Positions 3,115 to 39,457 of a DNA stretch of 64,000 nt are shown in pieces. Position 1 is the stretch's first letter. Every line of letters starts with the position of its first letter. Origin of the DNA: Bacteroidales bacterium (GTDB lineage: Bacteria > Bacteroidota > Bacteroidia > Bacteroidales > F082); NCBI GenBank assembly GCA_015709215.1, contig JACCQN010000002.1, positions 1 through 64,000 of the forward strand. Direction: 5' to 3'. Under the pieces are notes generated by a model. It did not search any database and was not told the origin of the DNA. It worked only from the letters and a program-made list of their open reading frames with translations. Made by a program: the position numbers and the translations under genes.

Positions 3115-5304
3115 ATGATGATGAGAATAAAAACAATTTACACGGGAGCAATAGTACTGCTATTGGCAAGCTTTTGTATGCTGCCCGAAGCAAAATCGCA
3201 AACTACCAGCCCGATGCAGGCCAATCAGCAGGAGGCATTGCTACACCAGGATGAAGGAGCAAAAGGAGACTATTGGCTGCTACTCCCGGATAAGAGCGGG
3301 ATTTATTTTAATGAGGGAAGAGTGGGAATAGGTACAGCAAGCCCGAGTGAAAAACTTTTGCTGCATGTTGCAGGGGCTGCCGGGGTAAATGAACTGATGA
3401 TTGGCAGTGAATATGCTTTACCGGCCAAACGTGGTACTGCCGATCAGTTTTTAAATGGCCTGGGTGAATGGGCTATCCCTTTCGGAGGCGTAAGTGGAGG
3501 AAATAACTATTGGCAGCCGGTTGATCTGAACAATGCAATTTATTACAACCGTGGCTGGGTTGGTATAGGGACAGATAACCCTGCTGCCAGCCTACATGTG
3601 CAAGGCAATATGAAAATGGGCAGCAATATTGGCGCGGTGGGTACGAATGCCTTTGCCGGGGGAGAAGAGAATCAAGCAAGTGGTCAGAGTGCTTTTTCTT
3701 ATGGGAAATTAAATCAAGCAAGCGGGCCTTTTTCAATTGCTCTTGGTCGAGAATCAAAAGCACTGGACCATGCTGCTATTGCTCTAGGCTATCATGCTGA
3801 AGCAAAAGTTGGTAATACTATTGCGATTGGAAAGTTTGTAGAAGCTACTTCTAGTAGTGCAATAACAATTGGTACCGGTACTGGTACTGGATCAAACATG
3901 CTTAGAAATAATTTTTCTCATTCATTCATGTTAGGTTTTTACAGCAACGTTCCCACCTTCTTTGTAGGCCCTTCAGACGGCGCCGGCACTACCGGCAGTA
4001 TTGGCATTGGCAATATGACAGCGCCACAGGCCAAGCTGCATATGTTATCAGATGAAGATGAGGCGGCCACCTTAAAGCTGGAACACCGCACCACCGGCAC
4101 CAAACGCTATGCCGAAATAGGATTGGGCACGCACCGCATACGCGCCGGAAACACCGAAAACATGGTTTTTAGCACACCTGACGCCAACAAAGATTTTGTG
4201 TTTGAGAATGGGAATGTGGGGATAGGAGTAAGCAGTCCCAAAGCGAAGCTTGAAGTAAATGGCGATATTTTGTTTACGGGGCAGTTATTTACAGATGAAG
4301 GGCCATACCAGCCAAGTCCTTGGGAGATAAATGGGGAGGATCTTTATTATTTGAAAGGTAATGTGGGGATAGGGATTGACCAGCCAACAACATCATTAGG
4401 TGTATTAGGCACAATTTTAGTAGGATATCATGTTCCTGTTCCAAATGATCAGAATAATTTGCTTGTTGAGGGAAAGGTTGGTATAGGCACATTTGCTCCT
4501 GAAGCCCCGTTGGATGTGGCGGGTAAAATCAGAAGTGAAAGTCTGCAGTTAACCCAGGGATTTTATCCGGGCTATCTGCTTACTTCAGATGACCAGGGGC
4601 ATGCCGTCTGGACGAATCCTGAAACCATACTCAACATCGGTCCTTGGAAACGACAAGGAAATAATGTTTTTGTTACAGGTTATGACAGGGTGGGGATAGG
4701 CACCGATCAGCCAGCAGAATCACTTCATGTTAGCGGGAATATCCGTTTGGATAATCAAGGCAATATTAAGGGTAACAGATCTAGCTGGAATGCCTTTAAG
4801 ATTTATGCAGGGAATGATGAAAGTGACCCTTATATTTTGATGAACAGCAACTACAACAACGCAGGTTCGATTAAGATATACAGTGTGGGTTCAGAGGGTC
4901 AGATTGAATTTCATAATGAAAATATGAAAGTGATGTCGATAAGGGCAGACAATAATATTTATGTGGGAAATCCTGAAACGTCAAGCAATATATTTGTAAA
5001 TGGTGAAATTACAGCTAATCAAATGCGTGTTAACACCAGTTTCTGGTGGGATAAAGTACTAAAACCCGGCTACGAGTTGATGCCGCTTGCCGAGCTTCAA
5101 GCTTTTATCACTCACAACAGTCATTTACCAGAACTTCCAAAAGAAACCGAAGTGCTTGAACAAGGCGTTGACCTGGGCGAGATGAACGGCCTGCTGCTGA
5201 AAAAAATTGAAGAACTTACCCTTTACCTGCTTGAGCAAGACCGTAAAATCAATACTTTGCAGGAGGAACTGCACCAAATAAAAAATGCAGGGAGTATAAA
5301 CTAA
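3115..5304 (+). CDS. Tail-fibre / trimeric-adhesin-like surface protein
   Basis: Three ATGs in a row (3115, 3118, 3121) precede a signal peptide RIKTIYTGAIVLLLASFCML ending near EAKSQ. The body carries many VGIGT-type repeats ('GNVGIGxxxPxAxLxVxG'), which recur every 50-100 residues in Bacteroidota fibre proteins. It also has a YadA-head-like stretch at roughly residues 180-260 (NQASGQSAFSYG, SKALDHAAIALG). The C-terminus has the PLAELQAFI...HLPELP...GVDLGEMNG signature and a coiled coil ending in LQEELHQIKN. This architecture predicts a trimeric beta-solenoid fibre with a coiled-coil end. Despite the phage-like fold there is no phage context; the neighbours are T9SS proteins. Its export route beyond the Sec signal is unknown. 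Confidence 0.75.
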   Translation: MMMRIKTIYTGAIVLLLASFCMLPEAKSQTTSPMQANQQEALLHQDEGAKGDYWLLLPDKSGIYFNEGRVGIGTASPSEKLLLHVAGAAGVNELMIGSEYALPAKRGTADQFLNGLGEWAIPFGGVSGGNNYWQPVDLNNAIYYNRGWVGIGTDNPAASLHVQGNMKMGSNIGAVGTNAFAGGEENQASGQSAFSYGKLNQASGPFSIALGRESKALDHAAIALGYHAEAKVGNTIAIGKFVEATSSSAITIGTGTGTGSNMLRNNFSHSFMLGFYSNVPTFFVGPSDGAGTTGSIGIGNMTAPQAKLHMLSDEDEAATLKLEHRTTGTKRYAEIGLGTHRIRAGNTENMVFSTPDANKDFVFENGNVGIGVSSPKAKLEVNGDILFTGQLFTDEGPYQPSPWEINGEDLYYLKGNVGIGIDQPTTSLGVLGTILVGYHVPVPNDQNNLLVEGKVGIGTFAPEAPLDVAGKIRSESLQLTQGFYPGYLLTSDDQGHAVWTNPETILNIGPWKRQGNNVFVTGYDRVGIGTDQPAESLHVSGNIRLDNQGNIKGNRSSWNAFKIYAGNDESDPYILMNSNYNNAGSIKIYSVGSEGQIEFHNENMKVMSIRADNNIYVGNPETSSNIFVNGEITANQMRVNTSFWWDKVLKPGYELMPLAELQAFITHNSHLPELPKETEVLEQGVDLGEMNGLLLKKIEELTLYLLEQDRKINTLQEELHQIKNAGSIN

Positions 5305-20905: not shown

Positions 20906-21483
20906 ACTTTTTTATTTTAATCCATTACCGTGTTAACTGATGGATTTATCGTTTATTTCTCCCAGTTTTTTAAAACTAATTCGATAACCCTTTAGGATAA
21001 ATCACGTTAATGGATCACTAATCAAAGCAAAGTTAAAATCAAATTTTTTCAATTTGATAATGAATGTATAATCGGTTTAAAAATTAAATAAACGGGTAAT
21101 TTTAAATAATAAACGGACATTTTTCAATTAAACCATTTAATTCGGTAGAGCCTAATCCAACAAAAAAATGTATTCAAACTCCTTTATCTTTTTCATAATT
21201 TTCATCATTCATCTGAATAATGCTATCTAATAGTTTGCATTAATAAAGCTAAAAACCAACCATCAAAACATTCAAACCTCAGGCTTTCAGACCTTCAGTT
21301 GTCCGACAATTCTTTACTTTTCACTCTTCATTATAAATTTTTTCAAGTCCCCTCCCCCCCTCCAATGATCATTCCCACCAAAAAGCCAAAAGCCAAAAGC
21401 CAGCAGCTATCTTAGCCAGTCAGCAAGCACAAACGTTCTGCACCGGCCAAGCCCACAATCCAAGAACCCCGGGTGCAGCCCCA
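20906..21483. other. AT-rich intergenic stretch
   Basis: About 580 bases with no convincing gene. It holds AT-rich sequence up to about 21340, a C-rich run (cccctcccccc), a short aaaagcc triplication near 21379 and a stretch that runs into the RHS cassette leader. No terminator or promoter could be assigned with confidence. Confidence 0.6.
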
Positions 21484-21574
21484 CGCTAGCGCACATTTGC
21501 AATGTGTGCCTCTTAAAATTCAGTCAAACTAATGCGTTCCGGTTTTCGGAATGTAATTCTGGTCTGAAATAGTC
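21484..21574 (+). repeat. RHS cassette leader, copy 1
   Basis: This stretch is nearly identical to 25626-25714. It begins with a hairpin (gcgcacatttgcaatgtgtgc) and includes a second small hairpin (gttccggttttcggaat). It ends right where both RHS core frames begin. Its repetition suggests that it was copied together with the RHS core as part of one unit. Confidence 0.75.
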
Positions 21575-21640
21575 AGCAACAACAACCAAAACCACTTTCT
21601 TACAGATTATGAATACGATGCCAACGGTAATATAACCAAT

Positions 21641-23098
21641 TTGCAACGCAATATGGACAATACGCTAATTGACAACCTGTCGTATTCCTACTACAGCAAT
21701 GGCAACCGCCTGAAAAGCGTTAACGATGCTAGCGGCAACACAGCAGGCTATGCACCCAATAGCGGCCAATACCTTTACGATGCCAACGCCAACATGACCT
21801 ACGATCCTTCCAAAAAGATCACCATATCCTACAACCCCCTCAACCTGCCCAGCCTGGTGGAGTTTGATAACAACGATTTTATTGAATACACCTACTCCGC
21901 CACCGGCACTAAGCTCCGCAAAGCCGTAACCTCCTGGAAAACCACCGCCGGCGGCACCACAGATTATTCCGGGCAGTTTTTGTACCAGGATAACGAATTA
22001 AGCTGTATTTTTACGCCTGTTGGAAGAATTGTGCCCATGCAATACAACAATGAAACCTTCTGGAAGCACGAGTACAACCTAAAAGACCATTTAGGCAACA
22101 CCCGCATCGTTTTTGCCGGTCACCCGCACGGCCAGCCCGAAGTGATGCAGCAAACCAGCTACTATCCCTTTGGTATGACGCTGCAACAGCAAAACTTTGG
22201 CGGCGCACTCAATCAGCCCAACAAACTGCTCTACAACGGCAAAGAACTACAAGACGACGAACTGGCCGGCGTAAGCTTGGATTGGTATGATTATGGGGCA
22301 AGGTTTTATGATGCGGTGCTGGGGAGGTGGCATGTTATTGACCCGATGGCACACGAACGGGAATGGCTTTCTCCTTATAATTTTTGCAGTTTAAATCCAA
22401 TAAATAGAATTGACCCGAACGGGGCATTCGATGATTGGGTTGAGAAAACACTTGATGACGGAAGTAAATCTGTTGAATGGGATGAGAATGTAACCAGTGC
22501 TGATGACCCTGACCTTCCTACAGGAGATAAATATTTAGGGAAAGAAGGATATGGTGTTGAAGGAAAAGGAGATAATGAAGGGCTTGTAAAATATGGCTCT
22601 GATGGTAAAAAGTATGATGCAAGTCTTGGTTTAGCAGAAGTTGAAATCAATGGTGGAAAAATGTCAGATCATGCCAAAACTATGAGTAATCCATTAGTTC
22701 AATCAATACACAGAGGACAAAATGATATTCTTAAAGAAAGTGCTTTGCTATCAACTGACATATTGGGTAATGTTGGAACTGGTGTTACATTTGTTGGATA
22801 TGGTGCTGCTTTTGCTCCAGGAGGTCAAGTTATTGCAGGTGGATTAATAGGAACAGGAAAGGCAATGACCACAACTGCCGGGTTTTTACAATTGGGAATT
22901 AACGTTCAAGATGGTAATTATGGGCAAGCAGCTGTGAACTTTGGGTTTATGGCTGGCGGTGCAGTTTTAGGCACCAAAATAAACAGTTTGAATTTTGGTA
23001 AGCAAAGTACTGTCATACTTAAGACAGGGGCTGACTTAAAACTAAATATAGGGAACAGAATAGTTAATACTGTTGTTGATAGGAGAAAAAACAAATGA
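21641..23098 (+). CDS. Orphan RHS core with glycine-rich hydrophobic C-terminal tip
   Basis: The frame opens at about 21557, inside the repeated leader, and has no obvious start; TTG 21641 or ATG 21653 are the first candidates. Residues 1-260 are the end of an RHS core: YD repeats (YLYDANANMTYDPSKK), QDNELSCIFTPVGRIVPMQ, the LKDHLGNTRIVF strand, SYYPFGM, NKLLYNGKELQDDELAG, YDYGARFYDAVLGRW and the boundary IDPNG. The tip after IDPNG (about 225 residues) contains hydrophobic Gly-rich segments (VGTGVTFVGYGAAFAPGG, AGGLIGTGKAMTTTAGFLQL) but no catalytic motif that I recognise. A membrane-acting toxin or a pre-toxin segment is possible. The next gene overlaps by four bases and encodes a membrane protein. 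The N-terminal delivery region of an RHS protein is missing. Confidence 0.75.
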   Translation: MQRNMDNTLIDNLSYSYYSNGNRLKSVNDASGNTAGYAPNSGQYLYDANANMTYDPSKKITISYNPLNLPSLVEFDNNDFIEYTYSATGTKLRKAVTSWKTTAGGTTDYSGQFLYQDNELSCIFTPVGRIVPMQYNNETFWKHEYNLKDHLGNTRIVFAGHPHGQPEVMQQTSYYPFGMTLQQQNFGGALNQPNKLLYNGKELQDDELAGVSLDWYDYGARFYDAVLGRWHVIDPMAHEREWLSPYNFCSLNPINRIDPNGAFDDWVEKTLDDGSKSVEWDENVTSADDPDLPTGDKYLGKEGYGVEGKGDNEGLVKYGSDGKKYDASLGLAEVEINGGKMSDHAKTMSNPLVQSIHRGQNDILKESALLSTDILGNVGTGVTFVGYGAAFAPGGQVIAGGLIGTGKAMTTTAGFLQLGINVQDGNYGQAAVNFGFMAGGAVLGTKINSLNFGKQSTVILKTGADLKLNIGNRIVNTVVDRRKNK

Positions 23099-23314: not shown

Positions 23315-23541
23315 AAAAACATTTCTCTAAGCCGCGAATTATCTACAAATGTTCTTTTATCCCTCTCATGCTGGCGCACAATAGGCTGGACTGCGATGCC
23401 CTGAGCAAACTGAAGGGAGCCTGTCTGTTGCCAGGTAAACCTGCCTAAGTGTAATGTGTACCCTTGATAATTCCACCAAGCTGGTGCTACCGGCCATCAG
23501 GGATGCAATCCCTTTCCGCTTATTATCCCACAAAAGCCAAT

Positions 23542-25394: not shown

Positions 25395-25416
25395 AATAAA
25401 ATTGACATACATGATA

Positions 25417-25448
25417 TAAAAAAACCGGTATTTACCGGTTTTTTTATA
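25417..25448. terminator. Rho-independent terminator
   Basis: The stem aaaaccggta / taccggtttt with a 2-base loop (tt), preceded by an A-run and followed by a T-run, ends the amidase-immunity unit. It can act in both directions and overlaps the stop of the minus-strand regulator remnant. Confidence 0.85.
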
Positions 25449-25539
25449 TCATTAAGCTTTGTAATTTGCTTTTAGCAAAGAAAGCATCAAGCATAGCATA
25501 CACATGGCTTTTATCTTCAGGCGTAAGCTTTTCAATGTT
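25444..25539 (-). pseudogene. 3' remnant of an XRE-type regulator
   Basis: Read on the minus strand this encodes NIEKLTPEDKSHVYAMLDAF followed by FAKSKLQSLMI and a stop. That is the helical C-terminus commonly found in small XRE-family regulators of Bacteroidota. Upstream the frame meets a stop at once and then a REP-like hairpin (25543-25576), so only the last ~31 codons survive. Confidence 0.6.
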
Positions 25540-25542
25540 CTA

Positions 25543-25576
25543 CCCCCCTGCTGGCGCCGTTTTGCAATCGGTGTCC
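25543..25576. repeat. REP-like hairpin
   Basis: The pattern ctgctggcgccgttttgcaa continuing tcggtgtcc is a short C-rich head plus an imperfect hairpin, related to the copies at 29716 and 29938. Confidence 0.55.
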
Positions 25577-25621: not shown

Positions 25622-25625
25622 GCCA

Positions 25626-25714
25626 CGCTAGCGCACATTTTCAATGTGTGCCTCTTAAAATTCAGTCAAACTAATGCGTTCCGGTTTTCGGAATGTAATT
25701 CTTGTCTGAAATAT
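25626..25714 (+). repeat. RHS cassette leader, copy 2
   Basis: Nearly identical to 21484-21574, with the same two hairpins, directly ahead of the third RHS cassette. Here the leader supplies an in-frame TTG at 25702. Confidence 0.75.
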
Positions 25715-27261
25715 TCAACAACAGCCAAAACCACTTTCGTACAGATTTTGATTACGATGCAAACGGTAATATCACCAATCTGCAACGCAACATGGACAAT
25801 ACCCTGATTGACGACCTGGACTATACCTATTACAGCAACAGCAATCGCCTGCAAAGCGTTACCGATGCCTCAGGCAACACAGCCGGCTATGTGCCCAATA
25901 CAGGCCAATACCTTTACGATGCCAACGGCAATATGACCTACGACCCCTCCAAAAAGATCAATGTATCCTACAATCCCCTCAACCTGCCCCGGCTTGTTGA
26001 GTTTGATAATGATGACCACATTACATACACCTACACCGCCAACGGCACCAAACTCCGCAAAACCGTTACCTCCTGGAAAACAACCACCGGCGGCACCACA
26101 GATTATTCCGGGCAGTTTTTGTACCAGGATAACGAATTAAGCTGTATTTTTACGCCTGTTGGAAGAATCGTGCCCATGCAATACAACGATGAAACCTTCT
26201 GGAAACACGAGTACAACCTAAAGGACCATTTAGGCAATACCCGCGTTGTCTTTGCCGCCCACCCGCACGGCCAGCCCGAAGTGATGCAGCAAACCAGCTA
26301 CTATCCTTTTGGGATGACCCTGCAACAGCAAAACTTTGGCAGCGCACACAACCCGCCCAACAAACTGCTGTACAACGGCAAAGAACTCCAGGACGACGAA
26401 CTGGCCGGCGTAAGCCTGGATTGGTATGATTATGGGGCGAGGATGTATGATGCGCAAATTGGGAGGTGGCATGTTGTCGACCCGATGGCAGAAAACTATT
26501 ATTCTTGGTCATCATACAATTATACGATGAACAATCCTATTTCATTCATTGATCCCAATGGTATGTATGTAGATAATTATGAAATTTACTCAAATGGAAA
26601 TATTGTAAAATACGAAACTGATGATAAATCTAATACTTATACATATGTCGATGAGGACGGTGCCAGACATGAGGTTGGAACTTACGACAAGAATGATAAG
26701 GGTTTAATTCAACTCGGTAATATCGATGATAGTGATGGAAGCGGAGCAAAAATTAGCGTAAAACCAGGAAATAGCGATAGAATGTATGCCTCAGGAGACG
26801 CAGTTGCAAGCCTTATTGGAGCATCGGCAGATTCCGGGGAAGAAATATATGTCATCAGTATTAGTAATTCTGATGGTTCTTCACCCTCTCCAAGTGTTTC
26901 GCATAAAGATGGTAAAAATTTGGATACAAGATACGCAGGAAAGAACGGTTCGCGTGATGCCATTAACTACAAAGATAGTAAAACTAATTTTGATAAAATT
27001 GATCAAACTGCTTCCGCTAGCATGAATGCGGGAATGAAAAAATTTGGATGGAAAGACATTCGATCATCTACGCTAACCATTTCAAATACAAAAACAGTTG
27101 GCGGAAAAGAAGTATCCACTTCAACAAATTATTCCGTTTCTGGAACAACCCACTTGAAGAATCATTATAACCATCAACACATTCAAGGATATAGACCTAA
27201 TGTTGTAAATAGAACCGCAGCACTTAAGCCATTACCTATGATTCCATTTAGAGGGTTTTAA
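25702..27261 (+). CDS. Orphan RHS core with MepA/VanY-like metallopeptidase tip
   Basis: TTG 25702 starts within the repeated leader; the RHS core proper begins at NNSQNHFRTDFDYDANGNIT. Residues up to IDPNGMY match the other cassettes. The tip (about 230 residues) contains SHKDGKNLDTRY (H401, D408) and, near the end, HLKNHYNHQHIQGY (H491, H493). The His-x6-Asp spacing plus a later His-x-His is the zinc signature of LAS-type peptidoglycan peptidases (M15 D,D-carboxypeptidase, M74 MepA). The tip is thus predicted to cut peptidoglycan cross-links or stems in the periplasm. This rests on motif reading only. The following gene encodes an exported SH3-like protein, a fitting immunity partner. Confidence 0.75.
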   Translation: MSEIFNNSQNHFRTDFDYDANGNITNLQRNMDNTLIDDLDYTYYSNSNRLQSVTDASGNTAGYVPNTGQYLYDANGNMTYDPSKKINVSYNPLNLPRLVEFDNDDHITYTYTANGTKLRKTVTSWKTTTGGTTDYSGQFLYQDNELSCIFTPVGRIVPMQYNDETFWKHEYNLKDHLGNTRVVFAAHPHGQPEVMQQTSYYPFGMTLQQQNFGSAHNPPNKLLYNGKELQDDELAGVSLDWYDYGARMYDAQIGRWHVVDPMAENYYSWSSYNYTMNNPISFIDPNGMYVDNYEIYSNGNIVKYETDDKSNTYTYVDEDGARHEVGTYDKNDKGLIQLGNIDDSDGSGAKISVKPGNSDRMYASGDAVASLIGASADSGEEIYVISISNSDGSSPSPSVSHKDGKNLDTRYAGKNGSRDAINYKDSKTNFDKIDQTASASMNAGMKKFGWKDIRSSTLTISNTKTVGGKEVSTSTNYSVSGTTHLKNHYNHQHIQGYRPNVVNRTAALKPLPMIPFRGF

Positions 27262-29341: not shown

Positions 29342-29420
29342 TAGAAGTCTAAGTATATTATAAACTGGATTTTTATTTTAGCAGAACCTACCTTACTTTT
29401 AATTATGCCTCTGTAACACC

Positions 29421-29715
29421 CAAGCTCCGCAAAACCGTAACCTCCTGGAAAACAACCACCGGCGGCACAACAGATTATTCCGGGCAGTTTTTGTACCAGG
29501 ATAACGAATTAAGCTGTATTTTTACGCCTGTTGGAAGAATCGTGCCCATGCAATACAACGATGAAACCTTCTGGAAACACGAGTACAACCTAAAGGACCA
29601 TTTAGGCAATACCCGCATTGTTTTTGCCGCCCACCCGCACGGCCAACCCGAAGTAATGCAGCAAACAAGCTACTACCCCTTTGGTATAACGCTGCAACAG
29701 CAAAACTTTGGCGGC
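29421..29715 (+). pseudogene. RHS-core fragment, truncated at both ends
   Basis: It begins within KLRKTVTSWKTTTGG and ends at LQQQNFGG, where a REP-like hairpin takes over. In between it is almost identical to the other cores, including QDNELSCIFTPVGRIVPMQ. There is no tip and no immunity gene. It may serve only as a homology block for recombination. Confidence 0.85.
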
Positions 29716-29747
29716 CCCCCGCTGGCGCGGATTTGCAATCCGTGCCT
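29716..29747 (+). repeat. REP-like hairpin, forward
   Basis: cccccgctggcgcggatttg and following caatccgtgcc form a stem between gcggatt and aatccgtgc. It abuts the cut end of the RHS-core fragment. Confidence 0.7.
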
Positions 29748-29797
29748 ACAAACAATCAACAAATAAACCGAGCAATTTATCTGTTGCAGCATACAAA

Positions 29798-29890
29798 AAA
29801 CACTTAATTTTGTTTTATCCTGAGGATTACGTGTACAGCGGTGCTGCTATCTATTCTGGTGGGAAGGGTTTAATAGAGGTTACAACATGA
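29798..29890 (+). pseudogene. C-terminal remnant of a REP-associated (RAYT) Y1 transposase
   Basis: The frame reads YKKHLILFYPEDYVYSGAAI then YSGGKGLIEVTT and a stop. 'PEDYVYSSAxxYxxxxGLIEV' is the standard C-terminal ending of RAYT/Y1-type transposases in Bacteroidota. Only about 30 codons are left. It lies between two inverted REP-like hairpins (29716 and 29938), the arrangement expected for a REP-associated transposase that has decayed. Confidence 0.65.
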
Positions 29891-29937
29891 ACTATAAATG
29901 GATAATGCATGTGGTTTAAAAGCAAGAGGAATGGCCA

Positions 29938-29971
29938 TGGCACGGATTACAAATCCGCGCCAGCGGGGGGG
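29938..29971 (-). repeat. REP-like hairpin, inverted
   Basis: tggcacggattacaaatccg continuing cgccagcggggg is the reverse complement of the copy at 29716-29747, apart from a few bases. Confidence 0.7.
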
Positions 29972-30496: not shown

Positions 30497-30546
30497 GAAG
30501 TTATCCGGCAATTAATTTTACATCCTGCTCAAAGAATTCTCTGCCT

Positions 30547-32031
30547 ATGAGCTACAACCGCTATGGCTATGTATTTAACAACCCTTTGCGGTTTACCGAC
30601 CCGAGTGGCTATTTTGCCAGTGGCGATGGCCCCGGCAGCAACAACAGCCAAAACCACTTTCGTACAGATTTTGAATACGATGCCAACGGTAATATAACCA
30701 ATTTGCAACGCAATATGGACAATACGCTAATTGACAACCTGTCGTATTCTTACTACAGCAATGGCAACCGCCTGAAAAGCGTTGCCGATGCTACCGGCAA
30801 CACAGCAGGCTATGCACCCAACACCGGCCAATACCTTTACGATGCCAATGGCAATATGACCTACGACCCTTCCAAAAAAATCACTGTATCCTACAACCCA
30901 CTCAACCTGCCCCAACTTGTTGAGTTCGACAACAGCGATTTCATTGAATACACCTACACCGCCACTGGTACCAAGCTCCGCAAAACCGTAACCTCCTGGA
31001 AAACAACCACCGGCGGCACCACAGATTATGCCGGGCAGTTTTTGTACCAGGATAACGAATTAAGCTGTATTTTTACGCCTGTTGGAAGAATAGTACCCAT
31101 GCAATACAACGATGAAACTTTCTGGAAGCACGAATACAACCTGAAGGATCATTTAGGTAACACCCGCATCGTTTTTGCCGCTCACCCGCACGGCCAGCCC
31201 GAAGTAATGCAGCAAACCAGCTACTATCCATTTGGTATGACGCTGCAACAGCAAAACTTTGGCGGTGCACTCAACCAACCCAACAAACTGCTCTACAACG
31301 GAAAAGAACTCCAGGACGACGAACTGGCCGGCGTGAGCTTGGATTGGTATGATTATGGGGCGAGGATGTATGATGCGCAGATTGGGAGGTGGCATGTGGT
31401 GGATCCTCTCGCAGAAGAAAGAAAATGGCTGTCGCCATACAATTACGTGCAAAATAACCCTATTATGCGTATTGACCCAGATGGAGCTTTGGATGATGAA
31501 TGGAATCTCAATACTGAAACAGGAGAAATGACTTGGGTTAGTCATATGGGGGGAGATGAAGTTCAGTTTGTGAATTTTGTAACTCCACATGAGAATGGGG
31601 CTATGGAATGGCATGGAACAACTTCTATTGATGGTGCAGATATTTTTTCAGGTCCTATGGCTAATAACTATAATGGAGATTTTACATTTGGCGTTTCCAA
31701 CAAAGATTTATGGTCTGATATTCCAAATGTGTATCAAGGACATTACATGGCATGGGATTTAAAACTACGTTATGTATATTCTAATAGGAGCAATCAAACC
31801 CAAATAAATTCTATTCGTTCACAGGAAGCTATGGGATTGGACAGGCGGGAAATGATATGGAATTCTTCTGATGAGTATAGACGAATAGTCAATAAATACG
31901 GTACGGATGCAAGCTTTGTTATGGCTCATGTATATGGCATGATGCCATTGCCTGTTGGACGAATGGGAGCCATGAGCTATACCCCGATAGCGTTTATTGG
32001 TTTGATTAATTATATTGTCCTTGCTGAATAG
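30547..32031 (+). CDS. Hybrid RHS: one RHS 3' boundary fused to a second RHS core plus unknown tip
   Basis: The protein begins SYNRYGYVFNNPLRFTDPSG, which is itself an RHS core end with a DPSG boundary. After GYFASGDGPGS it continues with NNSQNHFRTDFEYDANGNIT, the exact point where the 25.7-kb core starts. A complete shared core follows up to MRIDPDGALDD. The tip of ~165 residues contains WDLKLRYVYSNRSN, AMGLDRREMIWNSSDEY and TDASFVMAHVYGMM. I recognise no toxin family. No immunity gene follows; the next gene is on the other strand. The double boundary shows that one cassette was joined in frame behind another. Confidence 0.75.
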   Translation: MSYNRYGYVFNNPLRFTDPSGYFASGDGPGSNNSQNHFRTDFEYDANGNITNLQRNMDNTLIDNLSYSYYSNGNRLKSVADATGNTAGYAPNTGQYLYDANGNMTYDPSKKITVSYNPLNLPQLVEFDNSDFIEYTYTATGTKLRKTVTSWKTTTGGTTDYAGQFLYQDNELSCIFTPVGRIVPMQYNDETFWKHEYNLKDHLGNTRIVFAAHPHGQPEVMQQTSYYPFGMTLQQQNFGGALNQPNKLLYNGKELQDDELAGVSLDWYDYGARMYDAQIGRWHVVDPLAEERKWLSPYNYVQNNPIMRIDPDGALDDEWNLNTETGEMTWVSHMGGDEVQFVNFVTPHENGAMEWHGTTSIDGADIFSGPMANNYNGDFTFGVSNKDLWSDIPNVYQGHYMAWDLKLRYVYSNRSNQTQINSIRSQEAMGLDRREMIWNSSDEYRRIVNKYGTDASFVMAHVYGMMPLPVGRMGAMSYTPIAFIGLINYIVLAE

Positions 32032-37597: not shown

Positions 37598-39457
37598 ATG
37601 CGCTTCCAATTAATATATGACCCTGAACAATGGGATTTTATTCAGGAAAAGCTTTTACCTCTGGTCGAAGGGATTATTGATGATCATGCAGCTTACAGCC
37701 TGGATGAGCTAAAAACACTCAAAGGAGAAACTGCCCTGCTCGTTTATCTTTCAGATGGTGATTTGCATGAAGCTTTGCCCATAGTACTCGAAAACAGGCT
37801 CAAGCTCGCCGTTTTGCCGCACCCCGAGGCAAAGGAAGCCTGTATAGGTTTGGGTGTTAGCCGTCAATTGGAAAAGGCCGTTGATCATCTAAAAAAACTT
37901 GAAGAGCCGGTGCTTACTGATGTGCTGTATTGTAATGATCAAGTAGTTTTTAATCAGGTTTCGGTAGGCGAAACCTTTATGACCAACAGTCATTCGGGGG
38001 CGTTTAATTTCTTTAAGGCTGGGAGTTTCAAAAGCCTTAAAAGATTGGTTAAAACACGATTTTTCAGGGTGAATATTAGTTTACCCAACGACAAAATTAT
38101 CAAAACAGCGGTTGCCGGTATCACCATTTCGGAGCATCGTAAAAGTTCTCTGTTGTCGCGGCTGGTTTTGGAAGAATCCTCTATAAATGATGGTTTGTTG
38201 CATGCTCTGTTGATCAGTCCGAGAAGCATTTCGCAGATGCTGCGTTTTCTTTTTGGCTTTTGGAAAAATGGCAAACGGCTTCCTGATTTTGCTGCTCATC
38301 TGAAGGTTTCATCGCTCCTGCTTGAATTTCCGGAAGGAGAAAAGATTTTTGTACACGATGCAAAAGTGCGTAAAGCTGATAAACTGGAGTTTGGAATGGG
38401 GGAGCAGCAGCTTCAATTGTATCCGGGTGCTCTACTGGAACTGCCCGAATCGACAGATAAGCCTGGCGAACTCATCAAGACCAGTGCATTAGCGGGTGAG
38501 CAGACGGCCCGCGAACTTACAGGCCGCACCATTCCATTGATCAGGCAGGCATCAACAGATGAGTTTAAAGAGCTTTTTCAGCTGCTGCGCGACAATGCCA
38601 AATTAAAATCATCGTATCTGGTGCTTATGGTACTTTCGACCATGCTTGCAACCTTTGGTTTGTTTGCCAATTCAAGTCCCGTAGTAATTGGTGCGATGAT
38701 TCTGGCGCCGTTGATGAGTCCGATTATCTCGCTGAGTATGGGTGCGCTTCGTCAGGATAAATCGCTCATCATTCAAAGTGCGAAAACCATTTTAACGGGG
38801 ATGGGAATTGCGATGCTTTTTGCAGTGATTTTAACCTGGGTTACACCCATTCAGGCTGCCGGACATGAAATATTATCGCGTACCAGACCTAATCTGTTGG
38901 ATCTTGGTGTGGCAGTAATTTCGGGTATTGCCGGAGCCTATGCCCATGCCCGGGAAGAGGTTGCCAAAACCCTTGCCGGCGTGGCCATTGCAGTGGCTTT
39001 GATACCGCCACTGGCTGTTGCGGCTATTGGCTTGGCCTGGCTCGACTGGCAGATTGGGCTGGGCGCCTTATTGCTCTTGGTTACCAATCTAGCCGGAATA
39101 GTGCTGGCTGGTTCGTTCACATTTATGTTGCTTGGGTTTAGTCCTTTCAAATTGGCAACAAGGGGCATGCTTATCTCGCTGTTGGTAGTTTTACTGCTCA
39201 GTATTCCGCTGGCACTAAGTTTTGGGCAAATGGTGCAGGTGCACAGGTTTACGCGGGATATGGAAAAAATGGAATATAAAGGACTATATATCAAGGATGT
39301 GCAGGTGCAAACCTTGAATCCCCTGCGTATTGGTTTGAAACTGGTTACGGAAGAACCTCTGAGTACAGATCAGCTGGATTCCTTTAAACTGGAAGTGGAA
39401 AAGCATTTGGAGCGGGATGTTGAGCTGGAAGTGGTATTGGCGCTTGAGCGAAAATGA
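37598..39457 (+). CDS. DUF389 (TIGR00341-type) membrane protein with DAGK-like N-terminus
   Basis: The 619-residue protein has two parts. Residues about 1-200 resemble the nucleotide-binding fold of diacylglycerol or NAD kinases (LVYLSDGDLHEALPIVLENR, LKLAVLPHPEAKEACIGLGV). The glycines expected in the first active-site loop are weak, so activity is uncertain. Residues about 330-560 form the DUF389 membrane domain: FGLFANSSPVVIGAMILAPL, SPIISLSMGALR, AVISGIAGAYAHAREEVAKT and ALIPPLAVAAIG, with about six helices. The function of DUF389 is not established; a transport or lipid-related role is guessed from the fusion. It is a single gene with a plain ATG start. Confidence 0.8.
   Translation: MRFQLIYDPEQWDFIQEKLLPLVEGIIDDHAAYSLDELKTLKGETALLVYLSDGDLHEALPIVLENRLKLAVLPHPEAKEACIGLGVSRQLEKAVDHLKKLEEPVLTDVLYCNDQVVFNQVSVGETFMTNSHSGAFNFFKAGSFKSLKRLVKTRFFRVNISLPNDKIIKTAVAGITISEHRKSSLLSRLVLEESSINDGLLHALLISPRSISQMLRFLFGFWKNGKRLPDFAAHLKVSSLLLEFPEGEKIFVHDAKVRKADKLEFGMGEQQLQLYPGALLELPESTDKPGELIKTSALAGEQTARELTGRTIPLIRQASTDEFKELFQLLRDNAKLKSSYLVLMVLSTMLATFGLFANSSPVVIGAMILAPLMSPIISLSMGALRQDKSLIIQSAKTILTGMGIAMLFAVILTWVTPIQAAGHEILSRTRPNLLDLGVAVISGIAGAYAHAREEVAKTLAGVAIAVALIPPLAVAAIGLAWLDWQIGLGALLLLVTNLAGIVLAGSFTFMLLGFSPFKLATRGMLISLLVVLLLSIPLALSFGQMVQVHRFTRDMEKMEYKGLYIKDVQVQTLNPLRIGLKLVTEEPLSTDQLDSFKLEVEKHLERDVELEVVLALERK

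Follow-up and report, generated by a model that had tools for sequence, protein, structure and literature searches.

Orphan toxin cassettes are known to be shuffled, and PATEs and IS200-derived miniature inverted-repeat transposable elements (MITEs) are short derivatives of Y1 elements with palindromic ends, resembling the element that we describe here at positions 29716-29971 of a Bacteroidales contig (JACCQN010000002.1; "the window" below denotes the whole 64,000-nucleotide stretch analysed). For orphan cdiA-CT/Rhs-CT modules, PMC3150448 terms the mechanisms of exchange unknown. Among transposases associated with repetitive extragenic palindromes (REPs), known as RAYTs, a Bacteroidetes subclass (2.6, Bertels group 5) is described in PMC6006769 as possessing atypical hairpins without the GT[AG]G foot. 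We propose, with a probability of roughly 0.8, that the 256-bp feature in the window is a MITE-like element that arose from a Bacteroidota RAYT element by internal deletion, is mobilised in trans, and has collected at Rhs loci.

The system shares with RAYT/TnpAREP subclass 2.6 (PMC6006769) a Y1 HUH protein of ~173-180 residues with NHVH and YIHxNP motifs, a Bacteroidota host, flanking hairpins lacking the GT[AG]G foot and copies elsewhere in the genome, but differs in its few copies per genome and in ends that carry a C-run. A subclass 2.6-like assignment fits by motifs and phylum, as compared with the published table. REPINs and BIMEs, the REP doublets covered by that source, likewise comprise two inverted REP-like hairpins and are non-autonomous and presumably moved by a RAYT in trans, whereas the unit described here spans 256 bp, retains a coding remnant between its arms, and is represented by one to about four related short copies per genome. 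The large population of REP doublets characteristic of REPINs was not found: 10 hairpin sites were counted in this genome, and none of the 173 genomes of the family has more than 16. Orphan cdiA-CT/Rhs-CT modules, as described in PMC3150448, are similar in that orphan toxin fragments and immunity genes are arrayed and in part interrupted by mobile elements, including IS elements; what differs here is that a single family of short elements is found repeatedly at cassette edges, in several genomes. Unlike PATEs and IS200-derived MITEs, the enzyme concerned is a RAYT and not an IS200 transposase: the RAYT of this genome (P0001) reached 29 bits with the IS200-type TnpA profile NF033573, below the cut-off of 55 for an IS200/IS605 assignment.

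The two ends of the element form a 32-bp inverted repeat whose arms are 97% complementary (Table 1), each consisting of a C-run, a CGCT foot and a hairpin with a 3-nt loop. As single-stranded DNA, the left arm folds at -9.8 kcal/mol (z -4.4) and the right arm at -10.7 kcal/mol (z -5.2), none of 200 shuffles doing as well in either case. Between them lies a peptide identical at 15 of 22 residues to the C-terminus of P0001 (E 5e-10, single comparison); taken alone, the 23 codons reached no Pfam or NCBIfam family. Both the RAYT origin of this coding end, given that P0001 itself passes NF047646, and its enclosure by inverted REP-like hairpins had been proposed in an initial annotation made from the sequence alone, and are borne out here. 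The element limits were set by the stretch common to a second species and coincide with those of that annotation. No target site duplication was seen at either 256-bp site (in the window or in the second species), and none is expected of Y1 enzymes. The element is thus short, bounded by terminal inverted repeats and devoid of a functional transposase gene, with a related autonomous element and more than one copy at unrelated sites, as in MITEs; that this related element is active appears probable.

Table 1. Features of the RAYT-derived element and of related hairpins and RHS core fragments in the window.
Feature	Position	Strand	Remarks
Whole non-autonomous (MITE-like) RAYT-derived element	29716..29971	+ (RAYT sense)	256 bp; 255/256 with G162:C25:12022-12277, flanks differ on both sides
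Left terminal inverted repeat	29715..29746	+	C-run, CGCT foot, hairpin GGCGCGGATT-TGC-AATCCGTGCC; 31/32 with left end of C59 RAYT element
Right terminal inverted repeat (same hairpin, inverted)	29939..29970	-	30/32 with right end of C59 element
Last 23 RAYT codons	29819..29887	+	Peptide PEDYVYSGAAIYSGGKGLIEVTT; matches P0001 by tblastn and blastp; HUH and tyrosine motifs absent
RHS core fragment	29420..29715	+	3' side truncated exactly at element; 5' edge without hairpin; 90-95% identity with four other RHS copies
Probable truncated left end of related hairpin element	21481..21573	+	Hairpin 21484-21510 plus ~63 bp; RHS core fragment directly from 21574
Second copy of the truncated left end at 21481	25623..25715	+	Hairpin 25626-25652, then RHS core fragment
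Solo hairpin of same family, weak fold	25549..25575	+	~50 bp upstream of next hairpin; 2 mismatches to family pattern
RHS core fragment (Rhs_assc_core)	21574..22450	+	TIGR03696 57.7 bits (cut-off 32.5), open reading frame 21641-23098
RHS core fragment downstream of element	30637..31497	+	TIGR03696 72 bits, open reading frame 30547-32031; no hairpin at edges

Comparison with other genomes revealed that the element has moved. A stretch in another species of the genus (genome G162, contig C25) is identical at 255 of 256 positions, and the alignment ends at both element ends. By comparison, the one window gene used as a yardstick of divergence (37598-39457) aligned to G162 at 74% over 692 of 1860 bases and at 72% over a further 137, and found no match in G159 or G164. 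The full-length form behaves similarly, the RAYT unit on contig C59 of the same genome as the window being 98% identical to one on G162:C30, within the element only and without shared flanks. Related short forms were also identified in G162, G164 and G166, and an alignment of 12 sequences distinguished at least two different internal deletions. The left hairpin is degenerate in the short form on G162:C19, G166 possesses four short forms with a different internal deletion (one cut by a contig end), part of the coding end is lost on G164:C54, and G164:C50 carries pieces without ends. Both the short and the long form have moved recently, and since a near-identical copy sits at an unrelated site in another species and is accompanied by related short forms, the 256-bp element is, as judged from sequence comparison, a mobile, non-autonomous and internally deleted RAYT derivative. 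The term "remnant" used in the initial annotation is incomplete. Reduction of the coding part to 23 codons could still be read as the decay in place of a single, immobile RAYT copy; the 255/256 copy and the further short forms contradict this unless the contig carrying that copy was mis-assigned, and we consider such an explanation very improbable. G162:C25 is a 14-kb contig, and mis-binning could mimic the 255/256 result; the G162:C30 element lies on a contig of 345 kb. A clean empty site was not obtained for the element on G166:C55, the left and right flanks of which match different contigs of G165.

Five Y1 transposase matches were found in the genome of the window, one of which, on C59, is the RAYT P0001 (173 residues, up to an N gap), scoring 103 bits with NF047646 (cut-off 80) and 38 bits with PF01797 (cut-off 23). 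Its gene is bordered by inverted hairpins matching those of the element at 31/32 positions on the left and 30/32 on the right. This REP-type Y1/HUH transposase, with its HUH and tyrosine motifs and inverted flanking hairpins, identifies C59 as the site of a RAYT element; a search of the genome for a RAYT gene, one of the two checks suggested in the initial annotation, thus came out positive, with the same hairpins around the gene (albeit with an N gap in the copy). On C59 (L022:4056-4330), a 100-N gap at 4056-4155 is followed by two copies of the element's right end, spaced 125 bp apart. The contigs of the remaining four Y1 matches are all without this hairpin at up to 3 mismatches. The genes next to the C59 element show 82-88% and 69% identity to G162, and no RHS match was found in 12 kb of C59. 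To the left of the RAYT, the host gene breaks off at the element; genes of this kind in G160, G162 and on C75 of our genome precede an RHS gene. We do not claim that the C59 insertion removed an RHS gene, in view of the absence of an RHS match in these 12 kb, the N gap inside the element and a right flank that is possibly misjoined. At the corresponding loci of G160, G162 and C75 (L240, L242 and L138:648-8502), a gene that we take to be tail-fibre-like precedes a giant RHS gene, separated from it by a small gene in G160 and G162. A second RAYT-like gene, one of the four other Y1 matches, was observed on C32 (L005), between copies (1254-1276 and 2038-2060) of a different palindrome, CGACGTAGTCACWGACTACGCCG.

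To delineate the wider family, the hairpin pattern was searched at up to 3 mismatches in 173 genomes of the bacterial family, with the reversed pattern as control. In the genome of the window it occurs at 10 sites on three contigs (reversed control, 1), so that the other check suggested in the initial annotation, for the hairpin elsewhere in the genome, was likewise positive, and across the family it was detected in 35 of the 173 genomes, the reversed control yielding 8 matches in all. Six single matches in genus g12 look like chance because the control gave seven there. RAYT relatives were examined among the best 80 of at least 527 confirmed genome-contig stretches; the titles of these 80 are all of Bacteroidota, taking the named genera to belong to that phylum. 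At the 77 loci with enough flank, hairpins were found on both sides at 37, only upstream at 4, only downstream at 7 and on neither side at 29. Orientation could not be counted cleanly because the hairpin is nearly palindromic, 40 of the 77 loci also matching the other strand. By eye, two stem types recur, CGCTGGCGCNNNTTTGCAANNNGTGCC and CGCTRCCGCACGATTGYATCGTGTGGY; in a set of 166 distinct first-type hairpins, each of the five positions preceding the foot is most often C, with little conservation further out. The foot is CGCT preceded by a C-run, in place of the canonical GT[AG]G. In an alignment of nine RAYTs (a tenth, from G162:C30, was excluded for its stop), H60, H62, Y138, N142 and P143 are invariant, and correspond to the HUH histidines and the YIxxNP tyrosine motif. 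A profile of these RAYTs matched E. coli TnpAREP (4er8) with an E of 1.2e-5 over the whole chain, through two segments that are each weak alone. Distant relatives (30-49% identity) are also present on five plasmid records, e.g. NZ_CP147014.1 and CP012860.1 (three from Bernardetia and one each from Persicobacter and Salinivibrio); no RAYT relatives were found in phage records.

The location of some hairpins between open reading frames, and the good folding of four of the five hairpins in the window, raise the question of whether they are ordinary regulatory or terminator structures of RHS operons. This is scarcely credible given the inverted paired copies around RAYT genes at 37 of 77 loci, the copies inside coding regions and the mobile 255/256 copy in another species; furthermore, no T-run directly follows the stems at 29746 or 29939 as read by eye, no terminator scan having been run. 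Two features of the hairpins themselves were set aside as evidence. All six frames are open through the hairpin at 29720-29746 and its relatives in 82 of 176 cases, compared with 285 of 3520 random 27-mers, and because of this we made no use of apparent in-frame fusions, i.e. open reading frames that run through hairpins with peptides such as ARITNPRQRG or TDYKSAPAG near their starts. Cleavage at the hairpin tip, considered on the basis of seven "half hairpins" lacking the 3' half, was dropped, as in five of the seven another repeat directly follows in the loop; one copy (the second element on C48) still looks cut at the loop. The repeat in question is a different short one (of the CCTGGRCTG... 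type) that follows TTTG in the loop at L078 near 300 and 641, L134 near 2431, L138:13690 and L022 near 4393. In L078, L134 and L138 the 3' half (TGYAA...) reappears beyond it, which would fit the insertion of one repeat into the other's loop.

Within the window, element ends coincide with the edges of RHS fragments. All four alignments of the RHS copy directly left of the element end at 29714-29715, and homology is not resumed beyond; past the element, the next RHS match is a core end near 30538. The initial annotation had stated that the RHS core at 29.4 kb ends exactly at a hairpin, and that related hairpins sit at other cassette edges, both of which we recovered: the hairpins at 21484, 25549 (placed there at 25543) and 25626 differ from the family pattern at 0, 2 and 1 positions, respectively, that at 25549 folding weakly (z -1.4, 20 of 200 shuffles as good). 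The copies at 21481 and 25623 have sequence in common from 3 bp outside the CGCT foot onwards and none before, while a third RHS copy (30636) aligns only from 21574, the end of the hairpin tail. A hairpin and tail similar to the 21481 copy is also found on C75. Because the shared sequence starts at the outer end of the hairpin, the alignments suggest that the copied block began there. Mapped against cassette edges, a hairpin touches one edge of three of the five core fragments of the window; those at 23488 and 30637 are without one. Also noted, at 25411-25452, was a terminator-like 42-bp palindrome (95%) whose right arm contains a T-run.

Beyond the window, hairpin loci are enriched at Rhs genes in this and the sister genus. 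Rhs cores were searched in 20 of the 35 hairpin-bearing genomes and in two without hairpins; G015, G038 and G171, which possess hairpins and no Rhs core, were excluded from the enrichment count. Three of the five hairpin loci in the genome of the window have an Rhs core within 5 kb, as do 9 of 36 in six other genomes of the same and the sister genus, against 0.28 expected (binomial P 9e-12, with rounded genome sizes, hairpins within 1.5 kb merged, and loci assumed to be independent). In genus g16, two of 12 hairpin loci are near Rhs at this distance, both representing a deviating stem with 3 mismatches. Direct contact of hairpin and RHS edge (≤100 bp) was observed at 4 of 12 Rhs-bearing loci: the window, C6, where an RHS fragment begins ~15 bp from a weaker hairpin, G164:C31, where one begins ~70 bp after a hairpin, and G165:C15, where one begins at the hairpin. 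An RHS fragment on C75 terminates at a hairpin whose loop is enlarged. Truncation at about a hairpin was also seen for other domains: on C48, a DUF5675 starts at profile position 57 of 114, and in G159 an M91 effector starts at 24 of 176; away from Rhs, the ORF6N of G015 starts at 9 of 86. Another DUF5675 adjoining a hairpin on C48 covers nearly all of its profile (2-109 of 114). On C6 (L031:8023-8684), transposase-like open reading frame fragments, which we take to be IS3-like, lie ~200-850 bp from the RHS fragment and close to the hairpin. The pattern recurs in other genomes, with the hairpins as a candidate cause of the edges.

One explanation of this pattern is that RHS debris, being little selected, tolerates insertions and deletions, such that hairpins mark edges without a role in the movement of cassettes. 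The RHS fragments are indeed already broken, other transposase-like fragments occur near that of C6, and ordinary genes such as the ORF6N gene in G015 are cut outside Rhs loci too. Conversely, of 19 control loci encoding DDE_Tnp_1 transposases, which were present in seven of ten such genomes searched, 0 have Rhs within 5 kb (0.16 expected) and 1 has it within 10 kb (0.28 expected), a control too small to exclude a moderate effect of this kind. The start of shared sequence at the hairpin's outer end in the 21481 and 25623 copies also speaks against a passive sink, as do the direct, near-identical copies in the arrays described below. We give this explanation an even chance; insertion into unselected RHS debris followed by deletion is an adequate alternative for much of what is observed. 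The earlier proposal that hairpins helped to cut the RHS cassettes thus stands as to the edge pattern, which is seen for three of five fragments in the window and in other genomes; cutting by the transposase would be one possible origin of it, insertion into RHS debris with deletion or recombination between copies being an adequate alternative.

Ten loci with more than one hairpin were each compared with themselves, which identified arrays of direct element copies. On C48, direct copies are 98.8% identical over 162 bp and a third (94%) lies at a contig end, with corresponding values of 97.2% on G159:C5, 99.0% on G167:C2 and 97.8% on G166:C10, where the copies surround a full Rhs gene and the contig ends in the second copy. 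The genes enclosed by the copies at these four loci are Rhs or orphan-cassette genes. Weaker direct copies were found on G162:C27, G162:C3, G164:C1 and G015:C104, and no element pair on G162:C25 or G162:C17; the sole inverted pair of at least 40 nt in the ten loci is a palindrome in G162:C17. Genes outside the elements do not align as DNA in C48, G159:C5 and G166:C10, those of C48 nevertheless both being DUF5675, and G167:C2 has further repeats outside the elements. Read on the minus strand, C48 has the order element, DUF5675 gene, second gene, element, DUF5675 gene, second gene, element, with no RHS match in the stretch examined; the array of G167:C2 is similar and less regular. This all-direct order fits recombination between copies, and is also compatible with the strand preference of single-strand transposition. 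Ten neighbouring open reading frames reached no family above cut-off, and the toxin and immunity names that we use for such neighbours are in part our assumption. As the most regular case, C48 is the one we offer for a bolder and rather unlikely reading, in which the hairpin elements would be the joints of a toxin-cassette system, with orphan toxin/immunity units, each bearing an element at its 5' edge and all facing one direction, being gained, lost and reloaded at the elements. If true, exchange might proceed through the RAYT acting on single-stranded hairpins or through recombination of near-identical copies, somewhat like an integron array.

Returning to the MITE-like origin and trans-mobilisation that we favour, an internal deletion of a RAYT element would have retained both inverted ends (C-run, CGCT foot and hairpin) together with the last part of the transposase gene. 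Short and long forms are most likely moved in trans by a full-length RAYT whose ends match, for instance the one on C59 or a relative. By analogy with its family, the HUH/tyrosine enzyme would recognise the single-stranded hairpins, cut at the outer C/G-run and join the ends elsewhere without target duplication. In this and the sister genus the elements have collected at Rhs loci, where some interrupt RHS cores or genes of toxin type. Recombination between the near-identical direct copies, through deletion, duplication or exchange, would place the edges of cassettes exactly at element ends, as seen at 29715 and 21481/25623.

Several observations weigh against this account. No full-length element close enough to be the parent of the 256-bp form came to light, the best RAYT relatives reaching 73% over part of it or 95% over 102 bp, and no transposition was observed. 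The RAYT reading on G162:C30 has an in-frame stop near its end, and the right half of the C59 copy rests on scaffolding because of the 100-N gap inside it; more generally, the genomes compared are mostly drafts with many contigs. Hairpins are lacking at 29 of the 77 RAYT loci, and a RAYT of G160, a genome of the same genus (G160:C109, L228), that is 93% identical to P0001 has none in its 3.5-kb locus at up to 6 mismatches. Among Rhs-bearing loci, 8 of 12 have no hairpin within 100 bp of an RHS edge, and in three further genera 0 of 34 hairpin loci are near Rhs, which indicates that the association is not a general property of the element.

In the open-licence literature searched, we found no printed link between RAYT elements and Rhs cassettes. 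The kind of element is known, being a Bacteroidota RAYT of subclass 2.6-like type, whereas this variant and its association with Rhs cassettes are new. A short mobile element that recurs at cassette edges provides a concrete and testable candidate for the origin of these edges in these Bacteroidota.
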